A stretch of DNA of 28,295 bases from a virus. The stretch is taken from the IMG/VR virus record IMGVR_UViG_3300008110_004821, positions 1 through 28,295 of that record. One strand, given 5' to 3'. A program made the position numbers and the translations under genes. The notes under the pieces were generated by a model. That model ran no database searches. It was not told the origin of the DNA and saw only the letters and a program-made list of their open reading frames with translations. Numbering within the stretch: the first letter of the stretch is position 1; the number at the start of each line of letters is the position of its first letter. This document shows positions 11,860-27,257 of this stretch, piece by piece.

Positions 11860-12795
11860 ATGAAAAAACTTTTAGCTGCCATTATAATGGCATTTTACGC
11901 CTTAACTAGTTACGCTAATGATATAGTAACATTAGTAGTTCCGGTAGCACCGGGCGGCGGAACCGATGTATTAGCCCGTGCAATTGTCGAAAATATGACA
12001 AGGCAAGGTATCCCTATGATTATCTCTAACAGGCCAGGAGCTGAACGTAGTATTGGTGCAAACTTCGTAGCTACAGCTAACCCAGACGGAAAAACTTTAT
12101 TCTTGGGCGCAATTAGTGACACTGTATTGCTTCCCTTATTCAAATTCCCTGGTCTACAATTCAATGAAGATACATTTGTTCCAGTCGCATTCTTAGCAAC
12201 ATTGCCCCCAGTCATTACTGCTAGTAACAATGTTCCTGCAAATAACTTTAAAGAGTTAGTAGAGTTAATCAAAAAAGATCCTAACAAATATCAAATCGGT
12301 AGCTTTGGTAAACTAAGTGTTATGCAAGCTAATGCTATCTTTGCATTCGCAGGTGCAACACCCACTATCGTTAATTATAAAGGTGATGTGCCATTAGCAG
12401 TTGATTTGGTCGGTGGACATATACCACTAGGTCTTAACTCATTACCTCCTGTCAAAGAATTAGCTAAAGACGGTAAACTTAAAATCATTACTATGCTTAC
12501 AGATGAGCGTAACAAAGATTTTCCCAACGTAGGAACTATACATGAAGTAAACAAGTGGAGTAGTTATTACTGGTTTGGAATCTTTGCGCCACCAGGCACT
12601 AATCCAGAATTAGTCAAAAAATATCATACTGCATTTAACAATGCATTGAATGATGAGGATGTAAAAACTAAACTAGCATCACAATCATACAAAGAACGTA
12701 TTATGACTCAGCAACAATTTGCTAAGTTTTATAAAGATCAATTAAAATTTTATAAGCCATTAGTAGACCAACTAGTAGCAAAAGAAAACAAATAA
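11860..12795 (+). CDS. TctC/Bug-family periplasmic solute-binding protein
   Basis: A 311-residue exported protein: Sec signal peptide at 1-19 (KK, hydrophobic core, SYA|N cleavage), then the family's first strand and ligand loop VPVAPGGGTDVLAR (27-40) and NRPGAERSIGANFVA. The length and the NYKGDVPLAVDLVGG segment match the tripartite tricarboxylate transporter receptor (Bug) family, which binds carboxylates such as citrate, aspartate or aromatic acids. The family is expanded in Burkholderiales. No TctA/TctB membrane genes are present, so it would have to feed host transporters or act by itself. A divergent second copy lies at 22028. It has its own promoter and is followed after 27 nt by ahpC. 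Confidence 0.92.
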   Translation: MKKLLAAIIMAFYALTSYANDIVTLVVPVAPGGGTDVLARAIVENMTRQGIPMIISNRPGAERSIGANFVATANPDGKTLFLGAISDTVLLPLFKFPGLQFNEDTFVPVAFLATLPPVITASNNVPANNFKELVELIKKDPNKYQIGSFGKLSVMQANAIFAFAGATPTIVNYKGDVPLAVDLVGGHIPLGLNSLPPVKELAKDGKLKIITMLTDERNKDFPNVGTIHEVNKWSSYYWFGIFAPPGTNPELVKKYHTAFNNALNDEDVKTKLASQSYKERIMTQQQFAKFYKDQLKFYKPLVDQLVAKENK

Positions 12796-12822
12796 AAATT
12801 TCATTTAACATAGGAGAAAAAT

Positions 12823-13362
12823 ATGAAAACAGTTGGCGATAAGTTAGAAAAATTTGCAGTAACAGGTGTTAAGCCAGGACAGCCAGAAGATGCATTCTTC
12901 CCAATTACAGAAGAAAGCTTTGCTGGTAAATGGAAAATTATCGTTTACTATCCAAAAGACTTTACATTCGTTTGCCCTACAGAAATCGTAGCATACGACA
13001 AACTAGCAAGTGATTTTGCTGACCGTGATGCAGTATTGCTCACTGGTAGCACAGACAATGAGTTCTGTAAAGTAGCTTGGCAAAAAGCACATCCAGACTT
13101 AGCCAAGATTAATCATAATCAATTTGCTGATACAGCACGTGATGAGCGTAGTTTGATTAATCAATTAGGTGTATTCTATGCTCCCGCAGGTGCGGCATTA
13201 CGTGCAACATTTATTGTTGACCCGCAAAATGTTATTCAACACATTACTGTTAACAACTTAGATGTTGGTCGTAGTCCAGAAGAAACATTGCGTGTATTGG
13301 ACGCATTACAAACTGGTGAACTATGCCCATGTAATCGTGCTATCGGTGGTGCAACACTATGA
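12823..13362 (+). CDS. ahpC: Alkyl hydroperoxide reductase AhpC (2-Cys peroxiredoxin)
   Basis: The 179-residue peroxiredoxin reduces H2O2, organic peroxides and peroxynitrite. The peroxidatic cysteine is C51 in DFTFVCPTE, and resolving cysteines C168 and C170 lie in GELCPCNRA near the C-terminus. No AhpF gene is nearby; instead the stop overlaps the AhpD start by ATGA, so the reducing partner is probably AhpD, as in mycobacterial AhpC/AhpD. It has a strong AGGAGA ribosome-binding site. The cytoplasmic protein would protect the infected host from peroxide. Confidence 0.95.
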   Translation: MKTVGDKLEKFAVTGVKPGQPEDAFFPITEESFAGKWKIIVYYPKDFTFVCPTEIVAYDKLASDFADRDAVLLTGSTDNEFCKVAWQKAHPDLAKINHNQFADTARDERSLINQLGVFYAPAGAALRATFIVDPQNVIQHITVNNLDVGRSPEETLRVLDALQTGELCPCNRAIGGATL

Positions 13363-13904
13363 ACGAAATCAATCCAATCACAATCGGTGGCGACTGGGTT
13401 GCAAACATCAAAGAATCTATCCCGGATCATTCTAAAGACATTAAGTTGAATATAGATGCGGTTATTAATCGCAGTGGTTTAGATTTAGTTGATGCACATG
13501 CATGTGCATTAGCAGCCGCTATTGCCGCAGGTAACGGAGAACTAGCGTTTGAAATTCAAATGAACGGCCCGTTAATGGGCGCAGAAGAACGTGAAGCCGC
13601 AAAGACTGCCGCTAGCTTGATGGGTCAAAACAATGTCTGGTACCCATTTGTTGAAATGGCAGGCGATGAATCAATGAAGGGTTTACCTGCAGGATTGCGT
13701 ATGAATGCATATGCTACTCATGGTGGTGTATCAAAGAAGAAATTCGAAATGTATTCATTAGCCGCAAGTATTGTTGGTAAATGTCATTTTTGCGTCAAAG
13801 CACATTATGATACACTAAAGAAAGAAGGCATGACTACGCAAGAGTTAATGTCTGTTGGTCGTATTGCCGCAGTTGTTACTGCAATAGGTAAAATAGCACC
13901 CTAA
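13359..13904 (+). CDS. ahpD: AhpD-type alkylhydroperoxidase / AhpC-reducing protein
   Basis: A 181-residue AhpD/carboxymuconolactone-decarboxylase-family protein. The proton-relay and thiol residues are visible as E130, C142-x-x-C145 and H149 (KCHFCVKAHY), with the same E-to-C spacing (12) as mycobacterial AhpD. It should pass electrons from a lipoyl or thioredoxin system to AhpC and have weak peroxidase activity itself. It is coupled to ahpC by a 4-nt overlap and to the next gene by TAATG. An 18-bp perfect palindrome lies in its coding sequence at 13492-13509. Confidence 0.92.
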   Translation: MNEINPITIGGDWVANIKESIPDHSKDIKLNIDAVINRSGLDLVDAHACALAAAIAAGNGELAFEIQMNGPLMGAEEREAAKTAASLMGQNNVWYPFVEMAGDESMKGLPAGLRMNAYATHGGVSKKKFEMYSLAASIVGKCHFCVKAHYDTLKKEGMTTQELMSVGRIAAVVTAIGKIAP

Positions 13905-14773
13905 TGTTATTATACGATAACTACCTAAAAACTAGTGGTAATGGACCTACTTGGAAAGTTGAAATATCTAATCCAAGTAGGTCCATTAAATCTTATTATG
14001 AAGAAACAGTTAATGTAGCAGAAATAGTATGGTCACGGAAACAAGGTAACTTGTTTTTGTGTTATAGTGGTGGTCTTGATAGTGAATATGTACTATCCGT
14101 GTTTAAATCATTGGGTATGCCGATCACGCCTGTGATAATGCGTACACAATATAATCACCATGAAATTCAATATGCATATAAATACTGTGATGAAAATAGT
14201 ATTACACCTGTAATTATTGATTTAGATTATGACAAATTTGTTGAATCAGGTGAATTTTTAAAAATTGCAACAGAATATAAAATAGCCGCATATCAACTTC
14301 CTAGTAATTTGTGGCTTACTACTCAGATTGACGGTACTGTAATTACAGGTGATTCCGATCCACACCTGTTTCTACATAACGATAACAAATGGTATGTAGA
14401 CGAAATAGAACCAGTCTACGCTCAATTTGAATTTTTTAAAAGAAACAATATATACGGAACTCCTTTCTTTTTAAGTTATACATCTGAACAATATTTTGCA
14501 TTCCTTACAGACCCCACAATGTTGTCATTAGCAAGAAATGAGATACCCGGTAAGACAGGATCATATTCAAGTAAAGTTCATGTATACAATAATCAAAATA
14601 GATTTAAGTTAGAACAACGTGTAAAGAAACATGGATACGAGATAGTAGAACAAAGTCCTATATTCAATCATCCTGACATTCAATTAGTAAATAGTTGGAA
14701 AGATAAATGGTGGGGGTCAAGTAACCATGAATATTTTAAATTAATAGAAAGAACAAATAAGTATGGAATATGA
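13904..14773 (+). CDS. PP-loop ATP-pyrophosphatase-like protein (1 of 4)
   Basis: This 289-residue protein has the PP-loop motif S-G-G-L-D-S at residues 55-60 after a beta-strand (LFLCYSGGLDSEYVLSVF). This motif binds ATP and adenylates a substrate in asparagine synthetase, QueC, TilS, MnmA and PAPS reductase relatives. About 50 residues precede the loop. A later ITGDSDPHLF segment (149-158) fits the family's second nucleotide-side loop. Zinc-finger cysteines (QueC, TtcA type) are absent. It overlaps the radical SAM gene by 11 nt and the ahpD stop by 1 nt. A 17-bp perfect inverted repeat lies at codons 12-29. Substrate unknown; tRNA, sugar, small-molecule and nucleotide modification are all possible. 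Confidence 0.75.
   Translation: MLLYDNYLKTSGNGPTWKVEISNPSRSIKSYYEETVNVAEIVWSRKQGNLFLCYSGGLDSEYVLSVFKSLGMPITPVIMRTQYNHHEIQYAYKYCDENSITPVIIDLDYDKFVESGEFLKIATEYKIAAYQLPSNLWLTTQIDGTVITGDSDPHLFLHNDNKWYVDEIEPVYAQFEFFKRNNIYGTPFFLSYTSEQYFAFLTDPTMLSLARNEIPGKTGSYSSKVHVYNNQNRFKLEQRVKKHGYEIVEQSPIFNHPDIQLVNSWKDKWWGSSNHEYFKLIERTNKYGI
13939..13988 (+). repeat. 17-bp perfect inverted repeat inside a coding region
   Basis: Arms TAATGGACCTACTTGGA (13939-13955) and TCCAAGTAGGTCCATTA (13972-13988) are exact reverse complements around a 16-nt loop. In the mRNA this forms a very stable hairpin beginning 35 nt into the gene. It could affect translation, processing or coupling to ahpD. There is no U-tract, so it is not a classical terminator. 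Confidence 0.9.
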
Positions 14774-16259
14774 TGCAATTTTTATAGGAGGTAATAAACA
14801 ATTACTAGGTGGTAGAATATTAGCCGGCTATAGGTTAAGAACAGAAGGACGAAAACACGGGTATGAAACTTTTGTTATAGATACAGCACCTTCAATGTCT
14901 TGGGAAGAATTAGGAACATTATTAGAAAGTGTAGTAACTGAAAAAACATTAATGTTAGGTTTTAGTATTGCATGGATAGATGCATATAACCTCAGTGATA
15001 TTAATTGGATTAATGATAAGTTTTTCCATGACTTGCGTGTTAAATATCCGCATGTAAAATTTGTATGTGGTGGACCAGGCGGCCCGTGGGTCAAAGGTTC
15101 TCAAATTATATATAGAAATTGTGACTGGGTCCTAGTGGGTTTTAGTGATATATCTTATACTAAACTATTAGACTTATTCAGTGGTAAACCAAATCATGGA
15201 TTAAAATATTTTTTAGATACTGATAATAATAAGAAAATAGTACAGAGTGATATTAATCATAAAATTATGAACCCGGATGAAATTGAAACTGTACTTGAGC
15301 TAGAAGATAATTTCTTATCTTATCAACCAGTGCCATTAGAAGTAGGACGTGGATGTATATTTAGATGTTCATTTTGTAGTCACCCCTTTCAAGGTGCAAA
15401 AGATTATGATAGTTATCAAAGAACACCTGAAAGTTTAGCTAGAGAATTAAGACGCAATTATGAACTGTTTGGTACGACAAGATACGTTTTAATGGATGAC
15501 ACCTTTAATGATAGTATGGAAAAACTAGATAGACTGCACCGAGCAATTGATATAGCAAAGTTACCGGATTTTAAATTTATGTCATATATTAAGCCTGAAC
15601 TGCTGGCAACTAAACCTGAAATGATTGATAAAATGAAGGCGTTAGGTGTGACCGGGGGGTTTTTAGGTATGGAAAGCATGAACAATGAATCTAGAAAAGC
15701 AGTAAAGAAGGGCATGGATTTTGAAAGAGTTGCAGATGCTGTTAGGCTTTTTAGACAACGTACTAATGTAAAATTAGAGGCTAGTTTTATTGTAGGATTA
15801 CCGGGTGACTCTGTTGAGAACCAATACAATACACTATCATATATGATAAAAAATCAAGATGAATTTTGTGTTAGTTGGCACTTCACTGGGCTCGGTATGT
15901 ATGTTGATAAGTATGGTAAAGGTGCTAGTGAAATAGATAATAATCCTGAAAAATTTGGATATGAAATTCAATCTAAAACACAACTGATTCCGGGCGCACC
16001 TGGGTATTTTATTAATTGGAAAAATAAATTCATGGATATGCCAACTGCGTATAAATTGGGACGTACATTAACTAACCTATCTAATATAAAAAGACGACCC
16101 GGCGGCTGGCAGGTACCAACAGCGTGGCATATGGGTATTTCAGACGATGACATAGAAAATAAAACAGTTAATGAATTAAAAATATTTACTAATGGCCATT
16201 CATTTGAAAGAGCTAGAGCAATAGAATTATTAAAGAAACATACTGATTTAAAATTTTAA
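14763..16259 (+). CDS. Radical SAM protein with probable N-terminal cobalamin-binding-type domain
   Basis: The 498-residue protein has an N-terminal alpha/beta region (1-165) with a CGGPGGPW turn near 102-109, the layout of B12-binding-domain radical SAM enzymes, although the classical DxHxxG motif is not seen. The [4Fe-4S] motif C198-x3-C202-x2-C205 lies in VGRGCIFRCSFCSHP. It is followed by a TIM-barrel core (YVLMDDTFN; GGFLGMESMN; ASFIVGLPGD). Members methylate or rearrange inert carbons, or modify tRNA or lipids. An Fe-S enzyme in the same genome gives the phage IscU a possible client. It overlaps the preceding PP-loop gene and is followed 1 nt later by a GNAT gene, suggesting one pathway. 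The reaction is not predictable. Confidence 0.85.
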   Translation: MEYDAIFIGGNKQLLGGRILAGYRLRTEGRKHGYETFVIDTAPSMSWEELGTLLESVVTEKTLMLGFSIAWIDAYNLSDINWINDKFFHDLRVKYPHVKFVCGGPGGPWVKGSQIIYRNCDWVLVGFSDISYTKLLDLFSGKPNHGLKYFLDTDNNKKIVQSDINHKIMNPDEIETVLELEDNFLSYQPVPLEVGRGCIFRCSFCSHPFQGAKDYDSYQRTPESLARELRRNYELFGTTRYVLMDDTFNDSMEKLDRLHRAIDIAKLPDFKFMSYIKPELLATKPEMIDKMKALGVTGGFLGMESMNNESRKAVKKGMDFERVADAVRLFRQRTNVKLEASFIVGLPGDSVENQYNTLSYMIKNQDEFCVSWHFTGLGMYVDKYGKGASEIDNNPEKFGYEIQSKTQLIPGAPGYFINWKNKFMDMPTAYKLGRTLTNLSNIKRRPGGWQVPTAWHMGISDDDIENKTVNELKIFTNGHSFERARAIELLKKHTDLKF

Positions 16260-16260
16260 T

Positions 16261-16791
16261 ATGGATAAAGTAGAAATGCTGGTTCTCACTAAAGAAAATA
16301 AAAGTGAGTTTACTGAAAAATTGAAGTCGGTATTAATTGAAAAATTTGGGGAAAATATACCTGAAAACTATAGCTCCCTGCATCCATGGAGTTTACTAAA
16401 TCTAATAAACAATGATATGCTTGATACATACCAACTTTTATATGTCAATAATAAATTTTGGACAGCAACAGGTGGAATGATTAGAGAGTTTGAAGGTAAC
16501 AAAGTGTATCAAGCAGTATTTCGTGGGTTCTCTAATGCCGACAACAGACATAAAGGATTGGGAGTAAAATCATATACACATATTCATAATACATCATATC
16601 AAATTCAGCGAGCCAAAGAACTTAACTGTCATAGTGTAATTATATCCTTTAACGATTATAACTATAAACTCTTTGAGATAAATCAACGATACTTACTACC
16701 CAGAGCTTTTCCAAATCATACTTTTATAGCGTCCACTGAACCTGTGATGTTTAACGGGGTAAAACAATGGTTGCTAACTATGAAATTGTAA
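16261..16791 (+). CDS. GNAT-like N-acetyltransferase
   Basis: The 176-residue protein has a central strand (KVYQAVFRGFSN) followed by NRHKGLGVKSYTHIH (95-109), the R/Q-x-x-G-x-G/A acetyl-CoA pyrophosphate-binding motif and its helix, then a strand HSVIISFND with an N-Y-x-L segment as in GNAT motif B. The substrate is unknown. It starts 1 nt after the radical SAM gene. A CTAAATA motif begins right at its end, ahead of the desaturase. Confidence 0.65.
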   Translation: MDKVEMLVLTKENKSEFTEKLKSVLIEKFGENIPENYSSLHPWSLLNLINNDMLDTYQLLYVNNKFWTATGGMIREFEGNKVYQAVFRGFSNADNRHKGLGVKSYTHIHNTSYQIQRAKELNCHSVIISFNDYNYKLFEINQRYLLPRAFPNHTFIASTEPVMFNGVKQWLLTMKL

Positions 16792-16798
16792 CTAAATA
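16792..16798 (+). promoter_or_regulatory. T4-like late promoter motif (CTAAATA) before the desaturase
   Basis: CTAAATA is followed by exactly 5 nt and then the ATG of the desaturase, with no ribosome-binding site. T4 late promoters start transcription 6 nt after the last A, so the message would begin at the ATG and be leaderless. Confidence 0.4.
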
Positions 16799-16803
16799 AC
16801 AAT

Positions 16804-17511
16804 ATGACATACAAACAACAACTTCTACTAACTCAGGTATATACCCACTTCTTCTTTGTTTTGGGCGTGATTATGCTTCCATGGTACGTGACGATTCCTG
16901 CAATTGTAATATCGCAGATAGTGTATGTGGGTTTGTGTGGGACAATGCTATTTCATAGAACAATTGCACACAGAAATACAATTCATCCGTTGGCAGAAAC
17001 AGTTTTGATTTTATTGTCATGGTTAGGGGCTACCTCATCTGCACTTGCTTGGGCGGGAGTGCATAGAAAACATCATAGATATAGTGATACTGAAAAAGAC
17101 CCACATAGTCCTAAATGGATAGGTAGATGGAAAGCATATTGGCAACTATCTAACAATGACACTGATATAGTAAAGTATGTTCCTGATCTATTGAGAAAAC
17201 CCTTATACCTATTTCAACATAAGTATTACTTTCATGTGTTATGGCCTATACACCTAGCTGGATTGATATTCTTGTCATGGCAATGGTATTGGATTTTGTT
17301 ACTTGTCCCGGGCGTTCTCATGTGGTTTGGTGGTAGTATGATTAATGTATTCTGTCATAGCAATGAAGGTCCACGTAATGTACCACTACTTGGCTTTTTG
17401 ATTGGCGGAGAAGGATGGCACAAGAATCACCATGAAGAACCAGCTAACCCATCATTTAGACACTGGGGTGATTGGGGCGGTCATTTCCACAAATTATTAA
17501 GTGTAAAATGA
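16804..17511 (+). CDS. Membrane fatty-acid desaturase (acyl-CoA/acyl-lipid delta-9 type)
   Basis: The 235-residue integral membrane protein has hydrophobic spans near 12-45, 62-85 and 143-172 and the full histidine-box set: H51-x4-H56 (HRTIAH), H87-x2-H90-H91 (HRKHHRYSD, with the DPHSP block), H185 and H206-x2-H209-H210 (EGWHKNHH). These bind the diiron centre that introduces a double bond into fatty acyl chains. It is shorter than cellular homologues but no motif is missing. It would alter host membrane lipids or a lipid-linked product of this operon. It overlaps the next gene by ATGA. Confidence 0.93.
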   Translation: MTYKQQLLLTQVYTHFFFVLGVIMLPWYVTIPAIVISQIVYVGLCGTMLFHRTIAHRNTIHPLAETVLILLSWLGATSSALAWAGVHRKHHRYSDTEKDPHSPKWIGRWKAYWQLSNNDTDIVKYVPDLLRKPLYLFQHKYYFHVLWPIHLAGLIFLSWQWYWILLLVPGVLMWFGGSMINVFCHSNEGPRNVPLLGFLIGGEGWHKNHHEEPANPSFRHWGDWGGHFHKLLSVK

Positions 17512-18209
17512 AACTCAAACACCAGTTGCCTACCTATAGTATAATAGACCATTTATCTTTAGATGAAGAATTACTAATGGAATTGCAGAACTGCGTTAGT
17601 GAGTTAAACAGTGAGTTTAAATCAGTACTTGAAGTTAATAAAGGACTGTGTGGGGTACACCATGACTTGTTGAAATCTGTGTACGATAATTTTTTTCAAA
17701 TTAGCTTGACTGATAGCGTAGTAGAAAATAAAAATATTACAATGGATGAGTGTGAGGTTGTTCACGACAACTTGTATAAGAATGGATATAGACATAAACA
17801 ATCATTAGCATTAGATGATACTAGCGTTTTAAATGAATCTACATATACATCTAAAACAGATATCTATAAAAGATATGCACATATTTTTGATAAGGTACTT
17901 GCAAAATTTAAAGGTAGTCCCACAAGAATACGTTTGGTTAAACTTGAATCAGGTAGTAATATTGCACCGCATATAGATTATGATCCTAGTTACGCTGTTA
18001 GAATTATAATACCTATCTTTGCAGACCCAGATTGTGTAAATGTTTTTTGGGTGAAGAACAATATTGAATCAGTCATGTTTAAACCAGGACATGCATATTT
18101 TTTAAACACTGGTTATAAGCATGCGGTAATGAACTTTAGTAAGAACGATAGATATACTTTTATGATTTCTATCAACGGTACTGAGGATATACAACATTTA
18201 ATAAAATGA
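17508..18209 (+). CDS. 2OG-Fe(II) oxygenase-like protein (aspartyl/asparaginyl hydroxylase type)
   Basis: The ATG overlapping the desaturase stop (ATGA) is chosen; an in-frame ATG at 17472 would extend 36 nt into the desaturase. The 233-residue protein has H155-x-D157 (APHIDYD), H205 (YKHAVMNF) and R215 (DRYTFMISING) in a double-stranded beta-helix-like region, the iron- and 2-oxoglutarate-binding pattern of Asp/Asn beta-hydroxylases and relatives. It is one of four such proteins in the window. The target (peptide, lipid or small molecule) is unknown. Confidence 0.72.
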   Translation: MKLKHQLPTYSIIDHLSLDEELLMELQNCVSELNSEFKSVLEVNKGLCGVHHDLLKSVYDNFFQISLTDSVVENKNITMDECEVVHDNLYKNGYRHKQSLALDDTSVLNESTYTSKTDIYKRYAHIFDKVLAKFKGSPTRIRLVKLESGSNIAPHIDYDPSYAVRIIIPIFADPDCVNVFWVKNNIESVMFKPGHAYFLNTGYKHAVMNFSKNDRYTFMISINGTEDIQHLIK

Positions 18210-18778
18210 ACTACATTACTTACAAAAAAATTGAAGTACCTAAGTTAAAAGAAATACAACAAGAACTAACTGAATTCATACTACCATATTGTGAAGGTAA
18301 ACCTACAGGACTATGGAGCGTTGACATGACTAAGTTTTTTACCGAATGTAACCACACGGTTGAATATTTTACTGAAAATAATCTATACAACAACTTAAAA
18401 AAGGTATGTTACATAGTAGTTCATCCCGGTGCAATAGAAACTGACGCACATGTAGATAGAAACATTGAACCACCTGCTAGTGGCGGTGATACTACCGGTT
18501 GTTTAAGTCTTAATGTCGGAATCAAAAACTATTTAGAAACTTCAGTAGTGTTTTACAGATATCTTAATGGTCCTAAACACTATATACCTCTACCTGATCC
18601 AACTGAAGGGTCTTATATATTTTACTCAGAATCAGAGTTAGAAGAAATAGATAGATACGTTCTTGACAGACCGGTGTTAATGAACAACACTGTCCCGCAT
18701 GGAATAAGCAACGCTACTACCGAACCACGCATCACTATCAGTTTTAGATTTTTAAACGATCCATGGCATTTAATTTAG
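18206..18778 (+). CDS. 2OG-Fe(II) oxygenase-like protein
   Basis: A 190-residue protein with H82-x-D84 (DAHVDRN), H165 (VPHGISN) and R175 (PRITISFRF), spaced as the facial triad plus the 2-oxoglutarate-binding arginine of a cupin-fold oxygenase. Between them a glycine-rich segment and LSLNVGI and SYIFYSE strands fit the jelly roll. It is translationally coupled to the preceding oxygenase (ATGA) and overlaps the sulfotransferase by 16 nt. The two adjacent oxygenases share only the motif layout, so they are probably ancient paralogues or independently recruited. Confidence 0.68.
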   Translation: MNYITYKKIEVPKLKEIQQELTEFILPYCEGKPTGLWSVDMTKFFTECNHTVEYFTENNLYNNLKKVCYIVVHPGAIETDAHVDRNIEPPASGGDTTGCLSLNVGIKNYLETSVVFYRYLNGPKHYIPLPDPTEGSYIFYSESELEEIDRYVLDRPVLMNNTVPHGISNATTEPRITISFRFLNDPWHLI

Positions 18779-19431
18779 ATACTAACAAATCAGTAATCAT
18801 ATTGAGTCATCCAAGAAGTGGGAGTACTTGGATACAGGATAGTTTGCCACATTTTAATCTTAGTGAATTGTTTACTATGTACTGTGGTATTAAACAAGTT
18901 GACATGGATACTGGAATAAAATATAACTACTCTAATACTGCAAACAATGATTTAGAATATAGATTTGAATTGTTTGATAAATTTGTAGAGAGGCATAAAG
19001 CTGTTTCGGTAAAAACTCATCTACATTTACTGACTGAACCGTTGTGTAAATTCTTTGAACAACGAGATTTACAGTATGTGTTTTTGGAAAGAAAAAACAA
19101 ACGTGACACCTTTTGGAGTTTGTTAATAGCACTCAATACATTAGAGTTTCACAATACAATAACCAAAAAGAACATAGTCATACCTACTCATTCGATTGAT
19201 GATGCACTGCAAATAATGAAAGAGTATTATAATAAAATGGATATGATTCGTATCAGATTTAACCCAATAGAAATTTACTATGAAGATATGTTAACTTTAC
19301 CTGAAACTAGTTGGTGGAAACCTAGCACTAAATATGTTGTCCAAAATGCAAAAGAGGTAATAACAATTGAGAATATAAATGAAGTTACTGATTATCTAAA
19401 TAAGATTTCAGCACCATCGGAATACATATAA
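18763..19431 (+). CDS. Sulfotransferase-family protein
   Basis: A 222-residue protein starting with the 5'-phosphosulfate-binding loop SHPRSGSTWIQ (15-25) after a hydrophobic strand (VIIL). It has VKTH (83-86), a common sulfotransferase block, and a 3'-phosphate-binding type segment YVFLERKNKRDTFWS (105-119). The family transfers sulfate from PAPS to sugars, lipids or small molecules. PAPS would come from the host. It overlaps the oxygenase upstream and ends 3 bases before the PP-loop/GNAT gene; its last codons contain a TATAAATA motif. Confidence 0.82.
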   Translation: MAFNLDTNKSVIILSHPRSGSTWIQDSLPHFNLSELFTMYCGIKQVDMDTGIKYNYSNTANNDLEYRFELFDKFVERHKAVSVKTHLHLLTEPLCKFFEQRDLQYVFLERKNKRDTFWSLLIALNTLEFHNTITKKNIVIPTHSIDDALQIMKEYYNKMDMIRIRFNPIEIYYEDMLTLPETSWWKPSTKYVVQNAKEVITIENINEVTDYLNKISAPSEYI

Positions 19432-19434
19432 ATA
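19427..19434 (+). promoter_or_regulatory. T4-like late promoter motif (TATAAATA)
   Basis: An exact TATAAATA spans the end of the sulfotransferase gene and the first possible ATG of the next. The second in-frame ATG (19440) lies exactly 5 nt after it, the same spacing as in front of other genes here, and would be the first base of a leaderless message. Confidence 0.45.
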
Positions 19435-20876
19435 TGTCAATGAAACAAGGTTTAGAATACCGATTAGAAGGGCAGAAGTGTATTGTCCGATATCAAGCTC
19501 CGGACAGAAATTTTTCTGATTTCCGCACGGAAGCTAACAATGATGCAGTAACGATTAAAAACACATACGGGCAAGTATATGTGTTATTCAGTTCCGGCGT
19601 TGATAGTCAAGTTATAGCCAGAACGTTCTTAGATATGGGGGTTGATGCAGAATATATTTTTCTAAACTCAGTCGGTCATAGTGATGTTGAATTAGCACAT
19701 GTCCGTGAATGTGAGAAATTCTTTGGATTTAAAGTTAGAGTAGTTGATATTAATTTAGATGAACATAAAGAAGAATGGATTGCACGTAGCAAAACCGAAC
19801 ACCCGTTCTCAATGTTTCATTACCCATTTGAGTGGCTTAGTCAACAACTAGACGGAGATTATCCTATTATTACTCAGGGCGCCAACGATCCAGAAATCAT
19901 AGGCAGCAGTAGTCAAAAAATGTCAATCTACTGTAACTATTTTGAAACAATGCAACAACGTTTTAGAATGATGAGCAAAAGTAGACCGGTTATTGACTTC
20001 CCATACAGTCCGGAAACAATTGCAAGTTATTACACCGATGATATTGTAAAGTCATTTTGCAACTCAATTCAATATTACCACGAAAACAAATTATCGTTCT
20101 CATCTGGTTCTATTTTAAAGCCGGGTAATTATTGGAATTACTACGGCAAAGGAATGATGAAAGCCAAACATTTTAAAAATGATATCATATGGTATGGTAA
20201 ATTAAGTGGATATGAATCATATCCCATATGGTTCAAAGATTCGTGTATGATTAAAGAAACAAAGGTATCAGTTCCTTATTGGGATCTTGTTGACTTTTTA
20301 GAAAATTCTAGATCCACACACAAAGATTACAGCGAGTGGATGTACGGAGAAGATGCTAGATTTGTTTCAATTAACGCTGAATTTAAAGACAACGGAGATA
20401 AAGTAATTGAAGAACCGGGTGTGAATATAGCTACTTCTGAAAAATATTTAGATTATGATTTTGTTATGTATAGTCATTCTACACCTACTTTAATATCTGA
20501 ATACGAAAAAATGTTTCAATTGTATCGGGTAGACACAGGGGATTATTTGAATAGACCGCAGCCATATTCTGTTGACGGTGGAACACTGCTAAAAAAGGGT
20601 AATGAAATCATAGCTGGTATATTCTATCATAGTGCATCTTATGATGACTCATTGTTTATTAGATTGGCTTACGTGCATAATGAACATCGCGGTCACGGAA
20701 TACATAAACAATTGCATAATTGTGTAGACATAATTGCTAAATCACAAAATCGTAAAAAAGTTTATTCTACTATATTGCATAGTAATAAACAAATGACAGA
20801 ACACGCTGGCCCAAAAATAGGCTATAAAATAGCACACGATTATTCATTAATGTATAGAGAAATTTTGGATGCTTAA
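19434..20876 (+). CDS. PP-loop ATP-pyrophosphatase-like domain fused to a GNAT acetyltransferase domain (2 of 4)
   Basis: The 480-residue two-domain protein has an N-terminal part with the PP-loop variant S-S-G-V-D-S at 53-58 (LFSSGVDSQVIARTF) and a second loop ITQGANDPE (146-154). The C-terminal part (about 340-480) is a GNAT fold with RLAYVHNEHRGHGIHKQL (410-427), including the acetyl-CoA-binding RGHGI. The fusion suggests that adenylation/amidation and acetylation act on the same substrate. The start is either this ATG or the one at 19440, which suits the TATAAATA motif better. It overlaps the next PP-loop gene by 8 nt. Confidence 0.75.
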   Translation: MSMKQGLEYRLEGQKCIVRYQAPDRNFSDFRTEANNDAVTIKNTYGQVYVLFSSGVDSQVIARTFLDMGVDAEYIFLNSVGHSDVELAHVRECEKFFGFKVRVVDINLDEHKEEWIARSKTEHPFSMFHYPFEWLSQQLDGDYPIITQGANDPEIIGSSSQKMSIYCNYFETMQQRFRMMSKSRPVIDFPYSPETIASYYTDDIVKSFCNSIQYYHENKLSFSSGSILKPGNYWNYYGKGMMKAKHFKNDIIWYGKLSGYESYPIWFKDSCMIKETKVSVPYWDLVDFLENSRSTHKDYSEWMYGEDARFVSINAEFKDNGDKVIEEPGVNIATSEKYLDYDFVMYSHSTPTLISEYEKMFQLYRVDTGDYLNRPQPYSVDGGTLLKKGNEIIAGIFYHSASYDDSLFIRLAYVHNEHRGHGIHKQLHNCVDIIAKSQNRKKVYSTILHSNKQMTEHAGPKIGYKIAHDYSLMYREILDA

Positions 20877-22035
20877 TAAATATGGGTCATGGGTAGTAGG
20901 AGATAAAATTTTTTATGTTAGCTATGATGCATACAAATTTGCATCTGAAACTAATCAAAAAGTTTATTTTTGGTATCACCCAACAGTGTGGAAAGATTTT
21001 GATAGATCCAAGTTAGGCAAATATAGTCTTCCTTTTTTATATAAATATCGAGCACAACAGTTACGTGACAATTATGATTATCTTATACTCTACTACTCCG
21101 GCGGTGCAGATAGTCACAATATTTTAAGAACATTCATTGATAACAATATTAAACTAGATGAAGTTTGTGTTAAATGGCCAAAGCCATTAATGAATGGTAA
21201 ATTCTATACTCCAAACACAACGGATGTGTCTGCTAATAACTATTGGAGTGAATGGGATTACTGTGTAAAACCTAATTTAGATTGGCTAAAAAACAATAGA
21301 CCTGAAATTAAAATTACTATTAAAGACTTTATAGGAGACCCTGATAAGTTTGATGTTGATGGTATGTTTGAAGAAATTGATAGCAACTCATTTCATGCAG
21401 GGTTGTTATTAAATAGTAAAGTAAGCGATTCAGAAAGACCACTCATTGAGTCTGGAAAAACAGTAGCAAACATATATGGAGCTAATAAACCATTACTAAA
21501 ACTTAATGGTAATACAATTGAAATGTTTTTTACTGACAATGCACTATTGACTTCAGTTAAAAGCAGAATTAATCCATATGGGGCTGAGAATTTTTATTGG
21601 TCATTTGATATGCCATTACTGCCATTTGAAATGGCATATCAAACTGCTATGCACTATAAAGTAAATATAAACGATAGAAAGTTTCTTGTGCTACCTAAAA
21701 AAGATAGAAAACCAGATACACTTTCTGTTGGCATACAAACTGAAACACAAGGAATGATATCTAAAGGTATAATATACGGACACACATGGGACAACAGATT
21801 TCAATCTACTAAGCCCGGTAGTCAAGCCCGATTAGATAAGTTTAATTGGTTCTTTGAACAAAATGAGCTTAGTAGAACTAAGGATATGTTCTTAGATAAC
21901 GTAAATCAACGGTTAGCATTATTAAACGATAGATATATACTCACAGAAGATTATCACGGAACTACTATCAAATCATTAGTCGGGGCAGTATCTCCCGGCT
22001 ATGCAGTAACCACACTAAATGACACACATGTTTAA
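20869..22035 (+). CDS. PP-loop ATP-pyrophosphatase-like protein (3 of 4)
   Basis: The 388-residue protein has the PP-loop S-G-G-A-D-S at 77-82 (LILYYSGGADSHNILRTF), preceded by about 75 residues including a tryptophan/tyrosine-rich stretch. A NIYGANKPLL segment (197-206) lies where family members have the second phosphate-side loop. It overlaps the preceding PP-loop/GNAT gene by 8 nt and the following TctC-type gene, so the three are co-translated. A 14-bp inverted repeat lies at 21604-21643. Function unknown; it could act as a heteromeric partner of its neighbours. Confidence 0.7.
   Translation: MLNKYGSWVVGDKIFYVSYDAYKFASETNQKVYFWYHPTVWKDFDRSKLGKYSLPFLYKYRAQQLRDNYDYLILYYSGGADSHNILRTFIDNNIKLDEVCVKWPKPLMNGKFYTPNTTDVSANNYWSEWDYCVKPNLDWLKNNRPEIKITIKDFIGDPDKFDVDGMFEEIDSNSFHAGLLLNSKVSDSERPLIESGKTVANIYGANKPLLKLNGNTIEMFFTDNALLTSVKSRINPYGAENFYWSFDMPLLPFEMAYQTAMHYKVNINDRKFLVLPKKDRKPDTLSVGIQTETQGMISKGIIYGHTWDNRFQSTKPGSQARLDKFNWFFEQNELSRTKDMFLDNVNQRLALLNDRYILTEDYHGTTIKSLVGAVSPGYAVTTLNDTHV
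21604..21643 (+). repeat. 14-bp perfect inverted repeat inside a coding region
   Basis: Arms TTTGATATGCCATT (21604-21617) and AATGGCATATCAAA (21630-21643) are exact reverse complements around 12 nt. They lie within the third PP-loop gene. No U-tract follows. It is a second, unrelated example of a long mRNA hairpin in this operon. Confidence 0.85.
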
Positions 22036-22918
22036 AAAAATATTACTTACATTATTAACAACACTATCATTATTTTCACATGCAGAACAAAAGACAATTC
22101 AAGCAATTGTTACTATCGCACCCGGTGGAGGATTAGATTTATCTGTACGACATTTTGAAAAATATCTAGCAGAAAAGAAAAATATTAATTTAGCACTACT
22201 ACACAAACCGGGTGCAGAATCATTGATTGGTTCAATAGATATTGCAAACTCGCCAAAAGACGGAAGTGTGATTGGATTCAATACTATTGGATTATTAGCT
22301 TCTGTATTGGAAAAGAACAAAAACTTAGAGTTTGAGCTAATCTCTGCAACACGAAAATATGCGGCTGTAATGGTAGCTAGCCAAAAAACAAATATCACTG
22401 ACTATGATGATTTTGTTAATAAGGCTAGATCCGGAACAGACTTTAAATTTGCACAAGGTAGTGCTAATCAAAAAATTCAAGTTGATTACTTACTATCAGT
22501 TGTTAAACCGAAAATAAACCCAGTTGTTGTTCCTTATAAGGGAGCAGGTCCTGTTATTAATGATTTACTAGGTAGTCACATTGATATCGCTATTGTACCC
22601 TATGCGGTAGTGAAAGACCATATAGCTTCTAAAAAGTTAAAATTAATAGCAACAACTTCTAAATTAGTTGACCATCCAAACATTACGGTATTGACTAAAC
22701 TATACCCGAACTTTGTAGATTATGGAGGATATTGTTTAATCTTGCCAAAGAACTCAGACCCTGCGGTAATATCATTTTGGAGAACAACCGTCGAAGAATA
22801 CTTGACTGATCCTAAAATGAAGGAAGAATTTGTAAAGGAAGCATCGGAGCCATATCCATATGGTGAGAAGTTCCTTAAAGATATAATACGTGAATATCAA
22901 CGCAAGTTTCCTAGTTAG
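22028..22918 (+). CDS. Second TctC/Bug-family periplasmic binding protein
   Basis: Starting here gives a 296-residue protein with a normal signal peptide (MFKKILLTLLTTLSLFSHA|E) and places the IAPGGGLDLS motif (30-39) at the same distance from the N-terminus as in the paralogue at 11860. An ATG at 22019 would add three residues. HKPGAESLIG, VPYKGAGPV and the C-terminal helices match the tripartite tricarboxylate receptor family. The two copies are strongly diverged, suggesting different ligands or separate acquisition. It overlaps the PP-loop gene by 8 nt and so is expressed with the modification operon. Confidence 0.88.
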   Translation: MFKKILLTLLTTLSLFSHAEQKTIQAIVTIAPGGGLDLSVRHFEKYLAEKKNINLALLHKPGAESLIGSIDIANSPKDGSVIGFNTIGLLASVLEKNKNLEFELISATRKYAAVMVASQKTNITDYDDFVNKARSGTDFKFAQGSANQKIQVDYLLSVVKPKINPVVVPYKGAGPVINDLLGSHIDIAIVPYAVVKDHIASKKLKLIATTSKLVDHPNITVLTKLYPNFVDYGGYCLILPKNSDPAVISFWRTTVEEYLTDPKMKEEFVKEASEPYPYGEKFLKDIIREYQRKFPS

Positions 22919-22926
22919 TATAAATA
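22919..22926 (+). promoter_or_regulatory. T4-like late promoter motif (TATAAATA)
   Basis: An exact TATAAATA starts directly after the TctC-type stop. With initiation 6 nt after its last A the leader would be 14 nt and contain AGGAGA, matching the iscU promoter layout. Confidence 0.55.
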
Positions 22927-22945
22927 GTTATAAGGAGACCTACAA

Positions 22946-23242
22946 ATGAGTTATAAGTATAGTAGAATTACATTCAGACCCGAACTAGATTTATCTTTTT
23001 GGGATTGGCCAGAAGAAATCACGCAATATATAGCAGATACATATGATGCTACTGGATTACGGGAATCATGCACGGTAACAGTATCAGATGATGGATTCAT
23101 ACAAACAAGAACGTCCGTTTGGAAAGATAAAGAATCACATGTACAATTTTGTAATGATCCGGTGATGATTACGTGCTTTAGAGACCGTCGTGCTTATAAT
23201 ACCGCTAATGACATTCTTTCTTTTTGGCAAAGAGAATTATAA
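22946..23242 (+). CDS. Small phage protein of unknown function
   Basis: A 98-residue, tryptophan- and aspartate-rich protein (FWDWPEEITQYIADTYDATG near 18-37; CTVTVSDDGF near 42-51; FWQREL at the end) with predicted mixed alpha/beta structure. No family recognised. It has a strong AGGAGA ribosome-binding site and its own TATAAATA motif upstream, so it is probably expressed late and well. Confidence 0.6.
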   Translation: MSYKYSRITFRPELDLSFWDWPEEITQYIADTYDATGLRESCTVTVSDDGFIQTRTSVWKDKESHVQFCNDPVMITCFRDRRAYNTANDILSFWQREL

Positions 23243-23323
23243 AATATTTTTTATCGACCTGGACCTGTTAATAGGCAGACTCTTTAACAAAGAGCGAGGA
23301 TTGCAGAGCATTTTTGGATAAGC
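23243..23323 (+). other. Structured leader before the fourth PP-loop gene
   Basis: The 81-nt gap contains a perfect CTCTTT-AAC-AAAGAG hairpin (23280-23294) and the alternative pairing TGTTAA/TTAACA that uses part of it. No clear ribosome-binding site lies near the ATG at 23324. It may be a translational control leader or processing site, but nothing identifies it. Confidence 0.35.
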
Positions 23324-24247
23324 ATGATATACGGATTTGAAGATTCAAAATTCTACATAGATATTACTAGTTGTAGTAGAGAGATAGGTAACTATAGAGA
23401 AGAATTTGACAGGCGCGCAAGAGAAATTGCATCTGATAAATTGATGCTATGTCTAAGCAGTGGTTTAGATAGTCAATTAGTACTTCATAGTCTGAAGACC
23501 CAGGATATCCCAGTAGAATGCTCATTCTTGCGAGTTGACGGGTATAATGAGACTGAATACGAGAATGTAAAACTTTTAGAAAAAAAGTATGGTTTCAAAA
23601 CCAATGTAATCAATATTAATCCAAATATCCGAAGAGAAGAAATAGAACATATAGCCTACCAAACAGACACTCATCCTAACCATGCATTGCAACAGTTGTT
23701 TGTTAAAGAATTACCAAATGATTATGATATAGTACAATGTATGTCAACACCCTGGTTAATTCTCAGAGAAAAAGTTCACTATGCATACTATGGTTGGTTT
23801 GATCCAGATGTATCTAGACATAGAGCATTGAATGCTATAGAAAACAGAACAGGTAAGATTGTAATATTTGGTGATACTAGCGAGATGTGGTTAAGTTGTA
23901 TTGCAGATCCTTTAGTTGACCAGTTCCTGCATAGTTGGGAGTACTTTGAAGATAACGGGTTGATTATGGAGAAGGCAATCAACCAAGAACACAAAAAAAT
24001 CCCCCATGTGCTAAGATACGAGTATTATGTCAAGCCTTTCTTCTTAGCTAAGTATTGGAGAGATGAATTATTGTACTTTCCAAAATTGACAGGATTTGAA
24101 AAAATTGATTGGATAGAAAACGATGCATTGCTCAATAAAGTTAGATATGACAAACATCATATTATAATACCAATCCAAGACTTGATTACTTTCTATAAGA
24201 ACACTGATGCCAGGGTGCAACGACACATCTCTAAACGATTAGGGTAA
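23324..24247 (+). CDS. PP-loop ATP-pyrophosphatase-like protein (4 of 4)
   Basis: A 307-residue protein with the PP-loop variant S-S-G-L-D-S at 45-50 (LMLCLSSGLDSQLVLHSL), most like the PP-loop/GNAT protein in having SSG rather than SGG, followed by ECSFLRVDGYNETE, the strand and acidic turn typical of these enzymes. A VIFGDTSEMW segment (184-193) fits the second nucleotide-side loop. No zinc ligands or fused domain are seen. It has an 81-nt structured leader and no obvious ribosome-binding site, and is the last protein gene before the RNA-rich region. Confidence 0.72.
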   Translation: MIYGFEDSKFYIDITSCSREIGNYREEFDRRAREIASDKLMLCLSSGLDSQLVLHSLKTQDIPVECSFLRVDGYNETEYENVKLLEKKYGFKTNVININPNIRREEIEHIAYQTDTHPNHALQQLFVKELPNDYDIVQCMSTPWLILREKVHYAYYGWFDPDVSRHRALNAIENRTGKIVIFGDTSEMWLSCIADPLVDQFLHSWEYFEDNGLIMEKAINQEHKKIPHVLRYEYYVKPFFLAKYWRDELLYFPKLTGFEKIDWIENDALLNKVRYDKHHIIIPIQDLITFYKNTDARVQRHISKRLG

Positions 24248-25202: not shown

Positions 25203-25739
25203 TTAAGTTGTAATACTATTAAACAAATGCAATGCTTCATGCATTGTTACGTGCTTTTTAGTTTGACGATGGAACAATGCCATAGATATACATCTACGTG
25301 TTCCATAGTGATTAATCACATTATGAGGTATCCCTGTTTGAACTAGACTAGGACATCCCACTTTTTGTGAGTGTATCAGTTCTACTTCATTTGGTTTATA
25401 ATGAACATAAGTTCTATCAATTTTATCAGTACTAGATGGTCTGGTAATATTTGATGAATACCAATTCATTGTATGGTTATCTCCGTATACCCAATTAATT
25501 TTAACTATGTCAGATAATGATGTACCGTCAAGGTGAATCGGATGAACACATGATCCTTCTGAATAAAATGTAGCCGCATTAGGAAAATCTAACCCTAAAT
25601 GTAACAAAAAAGTTATTAATTTTGTATTGATGTGCGTTAAAGAAATAGTATTCCAGTAATCTTTGGAAAGGTCATTTATATCAATATCAGCCCGTAAGGG
25701 TGATATATCTAAATTTAAATTAATACAATATGGATTCAT
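25203..25739 (-). CDS. 2OG-Fe(II) oxygenase-like protein
   Basis: The only clear minus-strand gene in the window (178 aa). It has H69-x-D71 (PIHLDG), H139 (GIPHNVINH) and R148/R149 followed by ISMALFH, the pattern of a cupin-fold Fe(II)/2-oxoglutarate oxygenase; INWVYGDNHTMNWY (81-94) fits a jelly-roll strand pair. A TATAAATA lies 4 nt upstream of its ATG and there is no ribosome-binding site. It is bracketed by a 20-bp direct repeat, so it looks like an inserted cassette between the structured RNA and the tRNAs. The substrate is unknown. Confidence 0.7.
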   Translation of the reverse strand: MNPYCINLNLDISPLRADIDINDLSKDYWNTISLTHINTKLITFLLHLGLDFPNAATFYSEGSCVHPIHLDGTSLSDIVKINWVYGDNHTMNWYSSNITRPSSTDKIDRTYVHYKPNEVELIHSQKVGCPSLVQTGIPHNVINHYGTRRCISMALFHRQTKKHVTMHEALHLFNSITT

Positions 25740-25820: not shown

Positions 25821-25896
25821 TCCCCAGTAGCACAGCGGTAGTTGCACTTGACTGTTAATCAAGGTGTCGGTAGTTCGATCCTACCCTGGGGAGCCA
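25821..25896 (+). tRNA. tRNA-Asn(GTT)
   Basis: Complete cloverleaf with acceptor TCCCCAG/CTGGGGA, anticodon loop CTGTTAA (anticodon GTT), T-arm TTCGATC and encoded GCCA end. It is the first tRNA of the cluster. Confidence 0.95.
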
Positions 25897-25904
25897 AATT
25901 TAAT

Positions 25905-25979
25905 GGTGCGTTCATATAATGGTCATTATCTCGGATTGTCTATCCGAAGACGGGAGTTCGATTCTCCCACGCATCGCCA
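25905..25979 (+). tRNA. tRNA-Asp(GTC)
   Basis: Acceptor GGTGCGT/ACGCATC, anticodon stem TCGGA/TCCGA with loop TTGTCTA (anticodon GTC), T-loop TTCGATT and encoded GCCA. It has the G73 expected of tRNA-Asp. Confidence 0.94.
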
Positions 25980-25988
25980 GTATTATGT

Positions 25989-26064
25989 TGGGGTATAGTG
26001 TAATGGCTTATCACACTGGTCTTTGAAATCAGTAATCTTGGTTCGATTCCAAGTACCCCTACCA
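25989..26064 (+). tRNA. tRNA-Gln(TTG)
   Basis: Starts TGGGGTA and ends TACCCCT-ACCA, closely resembling the bacterial tRNA-Gln acceptor (with a T1-T72 mismatch instead of U1-A72). The anticodon loop is CTTTGAA (TTG). Confidence 0.92.
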
Positions 26065-26071
26065 AGTTTAT

Positions 26072-26147
26072 CTCTGTAAAGCGTTATCAGGCAGCGTACT
26101 CGGTTTGGGGCCGAGTGGTCTAGGTTCGAATCCTAGTACGGAGACCA
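26072..26147 (+). tRNA. tRNA-Pro(TGG)
   Basis: Acceptor CTCTGTA/TACGGAG, anticodon stem CTCGG/CCGAG with loop TTTGGGG (anticodon TGG), T-loop TTCGAAT and encoded ACCA. Confidence 0.93.
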
Positions 26148-26155
26148 AACAATAT

Positions 26156-26230
26156 GGGGGCAGTAGCGGGCTACGGGGATTCCTTGCAAGAATCTTGTCT
26201 AGAAGGGTTCAACTCCCTCGGTCTCCACCA
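26156..26230 (+). tRNA. tRNA-Ala(TGC)
   Basis: Starts GGGGGCA and ends TCTCC-ACCA, with anticodon stem GATTC/GAATC and loop CTTGCAA (TGC). The G3-U70 pair, the identity element for alanyl-tRNA synthetase, is present. The base of the acceptor and T stems has mismatches, so it is somewhat degenerate. Confidence 0.85.
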
Positions 26231-26235
26231 GATTT

Positions 26236-26290
26236 AGGATGCTAACAGCAAAGTTAAAAACTTTTCTTTTGGTGAAAACAAACGCATCCT
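26236..26290 (+). ncRNA. Three-arm tRNA-like small RNA, copy 1
   Basis: A 55-nt unit between tRNA-Ala and tRNA-Glu. Stem AGGATGC/GCATCCT (7 bp) closes a TAAC-agcaaa-GTTA hairpin and a TTTTC-ttttggt-GAAAA hairpin with a 7-nt loop. There is no T-arm and no CCA. It matches the unit at 28116 in sequence (AGGATGYTAACAGCAAA and RCATCCTGTTTTAT), with the closing base pair changed C-G to T-A, a compensatory change. T4 also encodes two non-tRNA RNAs in its tRNA cluster, a possible analogue. Function unknown. Confidence 0.65.
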
Positions 26291-26300
26291 GTTTTATTAT

Positions 26301-26375
26301 ACTCAGTTCGTCTATCGGTAAGGACGACAGCCTTTCAAGTTGTAAAGACGGGTTCGATTCCCGTACTGAGTACCA
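26301..26375 (+). tRNA. tRNA-Glu(TTC)
   Basis: Perfect acceptor ACTCAGT/ACTGAGT, anticodon stem ACAGC/GTTGT with loop CTTTCAA (TTC), T-arm ACGGG-TTCGATT-CCCGT and encoded ACCA. Confidence 0.94.
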
Positions 26376-26385
26376 AACAATTTAT

Positions 26386-26463
26386 GTCCGCGTAGCTCAG
26401 TTGGATTAGAGCACTTGTCTACGAAACAAGGGGTCGGAGGTTCGAATCCTTTCGCGGGCACCA
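26386..26463 (+). tRNA. tRNA-Arg(ACG)
   Basis: Acceptor GTCCGCG/CGCGGGC, a canonical D-arm (AGCTCAGTTGGA), anticodon loop CTACGAA (ACG) and encoded ACCA. A34 would need host TadA to become inosine. It is the most host-like tRNA in the cluster. Confidence 0.95.
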
Positions 26464-26473
26464 TATCATCGGA

Positions 26474-26480
26474 TTAAATA
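26474..26480 (+). promoter_or_regulatory. Late-promoter-like motif (TTAAATA)
   Basis: TTAAATA lies 5 nt before the ATG at 26486, with no ribosome-binding site, repeating the leaderless spacing seen before the desaturase. Confidence 0.35.
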
Positions 26481-26485
26481 GTATA

Positions 26486-27196
26486 ATGACATATACTAGA
26501 CTTTTACCTAAAATTATGCAATCTGATTTTTTAAATCAAGATGAAATTAATGACATAAAAAATAAAGTTTTTGATTTGAAATCATCATGGGAAGCTAGAG
26601 CACTTGATACTCCTGATGTACAACCCCAAAGACCGTTTATTATGAAAACAAGAATGTTGTCTAATGGTATGTACTCTAGAGATTATGCCTCATATGTAAA
26701 AGGTGTAGAAAAGATTAAACCTATAATGAGTAAATCTTTTCAAATATACTATGATAAAATTAGATTTTGGTTAGAAGAATATTATAAAAAACCAGTTAGT
26801 TTTTTGGATGGTACTAACTACCCCGGGTTTCATATTTTTTCATTAAGTGAAGAACAAAAATTAGGTAGAGTTACTAAATTTAATTTTCATAAAGACAAAT
26901 TTGGATATCTTAACAAATTCATAATACCCGGTGACATAGTATCAATAATCATACCCATTACTATACCTAAAATAGGCGGTTCATTGCTATACACTGCGGA
27001 AAGCACATTGCCTTCACCGGTAGAAATTGCTACAGGTAAGTACACCAGATTTGAGTATCAAGTTGGTATGATGGCTGCCTGGGGAGGAGACGTATTTCAT
27101 TCAATTGAACCTATGTACCTTGTACAAGGTGAATGTAGGATTACGCTTCAGATGCATTTGAATATTACTGACAATGGCATACACATTTTTTGGTGA
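26486..27196 (+). CDS. 2OG-Fe(II) oxygenase-like protein inside the tRNA cluster
   Basis: The 236-residue protein has H135-x-D137 (FNFHKDKF), H205 (VFHSIEP) and R218 (CRITLQMHL), with strands VSIIIPI and GGSLLYT between, the pattern of a prolyl-hydroxylase-like Fe(II)/2-oxoglutarate oxygenase. It lies between tRNA-Arg and a new promoter that restarts the tRNA cluster, so it appears to be an insertion. It has a TTAAATA motif 5 nt before the ATG and lacks a ribosome-binding site. It is the fourth oxygenase-like protein in the window; the substrate is unknown. Confidence 0.7.
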   Translation: MTYTRLLPKIMQSDFLNQDEINDIKNKVFDLKSSWEARALDTPDVQPQRPFIMKTRMLSNGMYSRDYASYVKGVEKIKPIMSKSFQIYYDKIRFWLEEYYKKPVSFLDGTNYPGFHIFSLSEEQKLGRVTKFNFHKDKFGYLNKFIIPGDIVSIIIPITIPKIGGSLLYTAESTLPSPVEIATGKYTRFEYQVGMMAAWGGDVFHSIEPMYLVQGECRITLQMHLNITDNGIHIFW

Positions 27197-27206
27197 TGAG
27201 AGAAAT

Positions 27207-27235
27207 TTGACAATAATTCAATTGTCTGATACAAT
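27207..27235 (+). promoter_or_regulatory. Sigma70-type promoter P4 for the second tRNA block
   Basis: TTGACA (27207-27212), a 17-bp spacer and TACAAT (27230-27235). The spacer shares AATTCAATT-n-TCTG with P2. Predicted initiation near 27242 gives a leader starting just before a strong ribosome-binding site. Confidence 0.8.
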
Positions 27236-27257
27236 ACATTTTTTAAAGGAGAACGAC

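Follow-up and report, generated by a model that had tools for sequence, protein, structure and literature searches.

Several described systems approach parts of the phage locus considered here. The asparagine, beta-lactam and carbapenam synthetases (PF00733) have a PP-loop core and adenylate carboxylates with ATP, releasing pyrophosphate, and the same core is found in LarE, TtuA and ThiI. TctC/Bug proteins and the DctP proteins of TRAP (tripartite ATP-independent periplasmic) transporters are solute-binding receptors. On the viral side, fatty acid desaturases have been described and are proposed to alter host membranes (PMC7300359), and tctA and 2-oxoglutarate (2OG) oxygenase genes are carried on SUP05 viral contigs (PMC4164917). 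We found no report in the open-access literature of a PP-loop gene paired with a receptor gene. Such a pair occurs in the window analyzed here, the 28,295-base viral record IMGVR_UViG_3300008110_004821 (IMG/VR, positions 1-28,295), within one co-directional, plus-strand run from TctC1 (11860) to PP4 (24247) that holds four PP-loop genes (PP1 to PP4), two TctC genes and a set of genes for tailoring-type enzymes. Nearly confined to viruses, the PP-loop family recurs together with solute-binding proteins. This pattern suggests that the phage causes its host cell to import a small acid and alter it chemically. Our tentative reading, to which we give a probability of roughly 0.45, is that the run serves a large T4-like freshwater phage as an island for taking up small molecules and modifying them.

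The coupling between PP3 and the receptors is close and recurrent. In the window, TctC2 (22028-22918) overlaps PP3 (20869-22035) by 8 nucleotides (nt), matches PF03401 with 61.6 bits against a cut-off of 27, and has a signal-like N-terminus as read by eye. A TctC gene stands no more than two same-strand genes from PP3, downstream or upstream, in 40 of 71 non-redundant groups, and where the two are adjacent the gaps are mostly between -26 and +28 nt, ATGA (4-nt) overlaps being commonest. Across 12 records of 151-525 kb, TctC lies within 250 bases of 11 of the 18 PP3 genes, against an expectation of 0.38, a more than 20-fold excess; none of 20,000 shuffles reached that count. On a quick tree of PP3, the TctC-downstream state changes 13 times (at least 10 changes being forced by well-supported branches) and the TctC-upstream state 12 times (at least 9 forced), so inheritance of a single block does not account for the pairing. 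In the reciprocal direction, of 34 viral TctC loci newly added by a TctC scan made with the closer set A9, alignment A8 being too diverse, 28 hold a PP-loop gene, five of the other six are on contigs carrying PP3 elsewhere, and one (L121) has no known PP3; these counts are biased, since the TctCs behind the profiles all came from the vicinity of PP3 and many of the loci are near-copies or lie on the same contigs.

The type of receptor and its company vary. DctP-family receptors above the Pfam cut-off occur in other PP3 loci, and on one contig (L088:5888-9993) a TctA permease gene (316.6 bits, cut-off 28.9) is followed by a TctC-like open reading frame (ORF) with no Pfam match and then by PP3, while a 168-residue ORF, likewise with no Pfam match, occupies the TctB position before TctA. 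All these genes overlap, and together they are possibly a complete transporter-PP3 operon; no capsid or terminase match was found on L088, so that its viral origin rests on IMG/VR. Elsewhere, a membrane protein with multiple hydrophobic segments and no Pfam match is encoded directly upstream of PP3 (L060:7410-8759) and may be another type of transporter. At L087:15792-17434, genes for a FabD-like acyltransferase and a PhyH oxygenase directly follow PP3-TctC.

The four PP-loop ORFs are intact where the original prediction placed them, each with an SGGxDS-type loop after a strand: YSGGLDS in PP1 (13904-14773), SSGVDS in PP2 (19434-20876), YSGGADS in PP3 and SSGLDS in PP4 (23324-24247). PP2, PP3 and PP4 share just 19-22% identity with PP1. 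Profile comparison nevertheless joins PP1 with PP3 (probability 95%, E 4e-8; two PP4 sequences were included in the PP1 alignment A5 used there) and likewise links PP2/PP4 to PP1 (probability 98%, E 3e-13). The four proteins are one divergent superfamily of common ancestry, and the earlier view of them as four different kinds of PP-loop enzyme is not supported. PP4, 93% identical to its counterpart in the related locus L004, is related to PP2, which consists of an N-terminal PP-loop domain fused to a GNAT-like C-terminal domain that PP4 lacks.

This superfamily, with hundreds of viral matches and almost none in cells, has been overlooked by Pfam, NCBIfam and PHROGs, none of which recognizes it, and none of PP1-PP4 scores above any Pfam or NCBIfam cut-off. 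The PP3 family in particular is found almost only in viruses. It has at least 414 viral matches (the best 80 of 414 stretches were kept) and, among about 85,000 genomes, a single cellular one. The latter lies on a 3,156-base contig (L118) of a Methylococcaceae metagenome-assembled genome, which carries a PP3 remnant, DctP, PP3 and a PP3 start, and which is probably phage DNA binned with that genome. No further PP3 match was found among 369 genomes of the same class, and in these PP1 gave short matches round the PP-loop only, with no full-length relative. The nearest BFVD structures to PP3 are annotated 'uncharacterized protein' of uncultured Caudovirales. Among 50,697 annotated phage records, PP1, PP2, PP3 and TctC2 had no match, and the radical S-adenosylmethionine (SAM) protein of the run had distant matches only.

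Relatives of PP1 were found at 12, then 26 viral loci, the nearest of which include IMG/VR contigs (352 kb and 524 kb) that encode a terminase and a gp23 capsid protein of T4 type. In related phage contigs, these among them, a core order recurs: PP1-(radical SAM)-GNAT1-desaturase-ox1-ox2-sulfotransferase is common to the window and loci L004/L011, L005, L006-L008 and L009, and partial in L010 and L015. The radical SAM gene at its core position is restricted to the window and L004/L011. Upstream of the core, relatives carry ahpC-ahpD or, in some, a rubrerythrin-like gene in place of ahpC. Around the more remote PP1 relatives lie different desaturase, Rieske, GNAT-like and 2OG-oxygenase-like genes. 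Within the stretches covered, 80 non-redundant groups with a PP-loop gene include a desaturase in 41, an ox2-type gene in 36 and TctC in 53, counts that describe PP-loop loci, the groups having been gathered through PP-loop queries, and not an unbiased survey of phages.

In the window, most junctions of the run overlap or are separated by at most 30 nt, in agreement with the joint operon first proposed. Spacings are -1 nt for ahpD/PP1, -11 for PP1/radical SAM, +1 for radical SAM/GNAT1, +12 for GNAT1/desaturase, -4 for desaturase/ox1 (ATGA, the ox1 start ATG being at 17508), -4 for ox1/ox2, -16 for ox2/sulfotransferase, +2 for sulfotransferase/PP2, -8 for PP2/PP3, -8 for PP3/TctC2, +27 for TctC2/g22946 and +81 for g22946/PP4. 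The originally delimited run, 13904-24247, holds as far as it goes and also reaches upstream into TctC1-ahpC-ahpD (11860-13904). All nine compared genes are under purifying selection, with dN/dS of 0.04-0.15 where dS could be estimated; synonymous changes far exceed replacements in each, which marks them as working genes. Together with the order recurring in related contigs, these values show that the gene run is not due to chance.

These observations also bear on whether the genes act together at all, since they could be unconnected auxiliary metabolic genes that happen to share a hypervariable region in large phages and take part in no joint pathway. Gene content does vary among relatives, where the radical SAM gene, PP2, PP3, PP4 and TctC come and go, and the desaturase (window 16804-17511 versus L006:11398-12102) is 95% identical between phages whose neighboring proteins are at 63-90%, implying recent recombination between phages. 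However, the order and overlaps of the core are conserved, and PP3-TctC pairs recur in both orders on the tree and far above shuffled expectation, which makes such an explanation quite improbable. Rather than hitting unrelated families that move independently and have no conserved neighborhood, the PP-loop genes are joined by their profiles and keep their neighbors.

Structure prediction and Foldseek searches, suggested at the outset as a check, yielded confident folds for both proteins modeled, with AlphaFold2 giving PP1 a predicted local distance difference test (pLDDT) of 93.2 and a predicted TM-score (pTM) of 0.90, and PP3 values of 92.5 and 0.92. For the PP1 model, Foldseek matched the synthetase cores of the beta-lactam, carbapenam and asparagine (AsnB) enzymes and the core of LarE at E of about 1e-4. 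A match of alignment A7 to RSC8 in the PDB (E 1.6e-4) was discarded as compositional, as it hit the same chain twice with 13 bits outside the PP-loop. At the family level, the PF00733 cut-off is not reached (12.6 versus 21 bits for PP4, no match for the other three), and the PP-loop starts at about residue 45-77, leaving no room for an N-terminal glutaminase-type (Ntn) domain. The PP-loop of PP3 is intact in 91 of 92 sequences, with a Gx(D/N)KP motif (K207-P208) and K315 near-invariant; in PP1, K241 is invariant.

An alternative chemistry is sulfur insertion, in which the PP-loop proteins would adenylate a substrate for thiolation in the manner of LarE/TtuA, with help from a nearby phage IscU. 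LarE and TtuA are among the best core matches of both PP1 and PP3, PP2 has a weak LarE match (TIGR00268, 20.9 versus 150 bits), C53 and C95 are invariant in near relatives of PP1, and an iscU gene is located upstream, both in the window and in relatives. Yet no column of the PP3 alignment reaches 30% cysteine among the 92 sequences, which argues against sulfur donation of the LarE/TtuA type by PP3, and every match to LarE, ThiI (PP2, 17.8 versus 20.5 bits) or QueC (PP1, 14.1 versus 22 bits) is below its cut-off. We regard sulfur insertion as improbable.

Nor is a role in tRNA or DNA base modification, with the PP-loop enzymes acting on phage tRNAs or nucleotides, well placed among the explanations. 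tRNA is a substrate of many PP-loop enzymes, and twelve tRNA genes in three blocks follow the run in the window (25821-28259), with similar clusters beyond the operon in L005, L010 and L015. On the stretches covered for L004, L006 and L009, all bearing the core, no tRNA was found. Moreover, the PP-loop proteins have no TilS, MnmA or QueC match above cut-off, and the genes linked to them encode solute-binding proteins rather than enzymes of tRNA or DNA. In the absence of a consistent link to tRNA clusters across relatives, the tRNA target first entertained was rejected, several core-bearing stretches without a cluster making it the weakest reading; base modification as a whole seems very improbable.

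The tailoring enzymes of the run are largely as originally described, the radical SAM, desaturase and oxygenase motifs being intact. The radical SAM protein (14763-16259) matches PF04055 (71.4 versus 29.5 bits) with the CxxxCxxC motif CIFRCSFC, and resembles cobalamin-type (B12-type lipid/hopanoid) radical SAM families, all NCBIfam matches being below cut-off. The acyl desaturase (16804-17511) matches PF00487 (33.3 versus 29.7 bits), has its three histidine boxes intact (HRTIAH, HRKHH and HKNHH), and shows a weak match to the DesA family and one to the acyl-CoA desaturase 4ymk (E 0.001). Ox1 (17508-18209) is an Asp/Asn beta-hydroxylase-like 2OG-Fe(II) oxygenase (PF05118, 26.3 versus 22.6 bits; HID and a distal H), and ox2 (18206-18778) a 2OG-oxygenase-like protein with HVD and a distal H and no Pfam match. 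A second protein of the ox2 family, 75% identical in L005, is encoded on the opposite strand of the window (25203-25739, minus). The GNAT-like and sulfotransferase-like genes also named at first are present, with provisional assignments. GNAT1 (16261-16791), assigned by eye and conserved at 63-85%, has no Pfam and no PDB match; a further GNAT-like domain forms the C-terminal part of PP2 (PHROG acetyltransferase, E 7e-5; Pfam GNAT 17.5 bits, below the cut-off of 20.7). The sulfotransferase-like protein (18763-19431) is below the Pfam cut-offs (PF00685, 15.6 versus 22 bits; PF13469, 17.1 versus 27 bits), and its PRSGSTW loop, which resembles a 3'-phosphoadenosine 5'-phosphosulfate (PAPS) loop, is invariant in five homologues.

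This content could instead serve to remodel the host envelope, the operon desaturating, hydroxylating, amidating and sulfating a host lipid or surface glycan and thereby altering membrane fluidity or blocking superinfection. The acyl desaturase family, the GNAT-like, FabD-like and sulfotransferase-like genes, and the below-cut-off radical SAM matches to lipid/hopanoid families would all suit such a role, as would the membrane effect proposed for viral desaturases (PMC7300359). On the other hand, no glycosyltransferase or lipid-transfer gene was recognized in the run, and the coupling of PP3 to solute-binding proteins would be left unexplained; we consider envelope remodeling unlikely, if worth keeping in view. 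Genes for a FabD-like acyltransferase and for P450, PhyH, Rieske, ATP-grasp and NMO proteins are among the neighbors, and these point to small-molecule chemistry.

The remaining genes of the run stand at its ends. Upstream, TctC1 (11860-12795) has a signal-like N-terminus (MKKLLAAIIMAFYALTSYA) and clusters with TctC2 and the TctCs of PP3 phages. It is followed by genes named from sequence as encoding an AhpC-like peroxiredoxin (12823-13362), a conserved upstream partner, and an AhpD-like protein (13359-13904) whose gene overlaps ahpC (ATGA) and PP1 (1 nt). Between TctC2 and PP4, g22946 (22946-23242) encodes a small protein of 98 residues whose cluster is present in 23 groups and operon-linked to PP3 in 13. 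The original gene set had passed over TctC2 inside the run, the TctC/DctP coupling, the restriction to viruses, and the upstream ahpC/ahpD or rubrerythrin genes.

Overlapping genes for receptors, ligases and tailoring enzymes are consistent with a carboxylate being captured, adenylated and conjugated, with oxidation, acylation and sulfation to follow. In the uptake-and-modification reading, the phage TctC receptors would be exported to the periplasm, bind an organic acid and pass it on to a TctAB-type permease of the host, with DctP acting instead in some relatives and TctA itself being supplied on one contig. The carboxylate would be adenylated via the PP-loop and ATP, with release of pyrophosphate, by PP3 and, judging from homology, by PP1, PP2 and PP4 as well, and the adenylate would be joined to an amine acceptor or, less likely, a sulfur acceptor. 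The GNAT-like domain of PP2 and GNAT1 may add acyl groups, and the desaturase, the two 2OG oxygenases, the radical SAM enzyme and the sulfotransferase may tailor the product, while AhpC/AhpD or rubrerythrin would shield the iron/O2 enzymes from peroxide. What the analysis shows stays at the level of the genes; how the enzymes act, which way solutes move, what is used and made, and how the phage gains are what we infer.

Several points weigh against this reading. PP3 and TctC are not beside the conserved core in L005 and L006, and the two units may therefore be separate pathways. Two DctP homologues, one of them on L118, start without an obvious signal peptide, a poor fit with simple periplasmic capture. 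Neither TctA nor TctB was recognized by eye in the 28-kb window, where only some ORFs were profile-scanned, so transport would need a host permease. Solved enzymes are matched by Foldseek at low TM-scores (0.2-0.5), and for PP3 no structure in the PDB matched at E<0.001, which makes the amide chemistry an extrapolation. Finally, the reading names neither a substrate nor a product. The coupling of PP3 to a receptor does offer a specific clue, as whatever TctC2 binds should indicate what PP3 acts on. A more far-reaching proposal, which we hold to be doubtful, is that T4-like jumbo phages combine their own near-virus-only, carboxylate-activating PP-loop ligases with substrate-importing receptors in an uptake-coupled, natural-product-like pathway, whose product (a signal, an antimicrobial, or a siderophore-like or envelope conjugate) would be made during infection.

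Compared with the known systems, the phage PP-loop proteins share their core with the PF00733 synthetases, the best Foldseek matches of PP1, from which carboxylate adenylation is expected by analogy, but they lack the N-terminal glutaminase-type domain, have a different C-terminal part, are restricted to viruses and remain below the Pfam cut-off. With LarE, TtuA and ThiI they have weak profile and fold matches in common, whereas PP3 is without a conserved cysteine and the family cut-offs are not reached. TctC2 and the DctP homologues near PP3 belong, above Pfam cut-offs, with the TctC/Bug and TRAP receptors, yet here the receptors are phage-encoded, usually without recognized permease genes, and coupled to PP3. 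Unlike viral auxiliary metabolic genes that occur singly, those of the window are kept together in a conserved operon of many genes, built with a PP-loop superfamily restricted to viruses; if our reading is true, phages would run multi-step small-molecule pathways of their own and so go further than the lone auxiliary metabolic genes usually seen.

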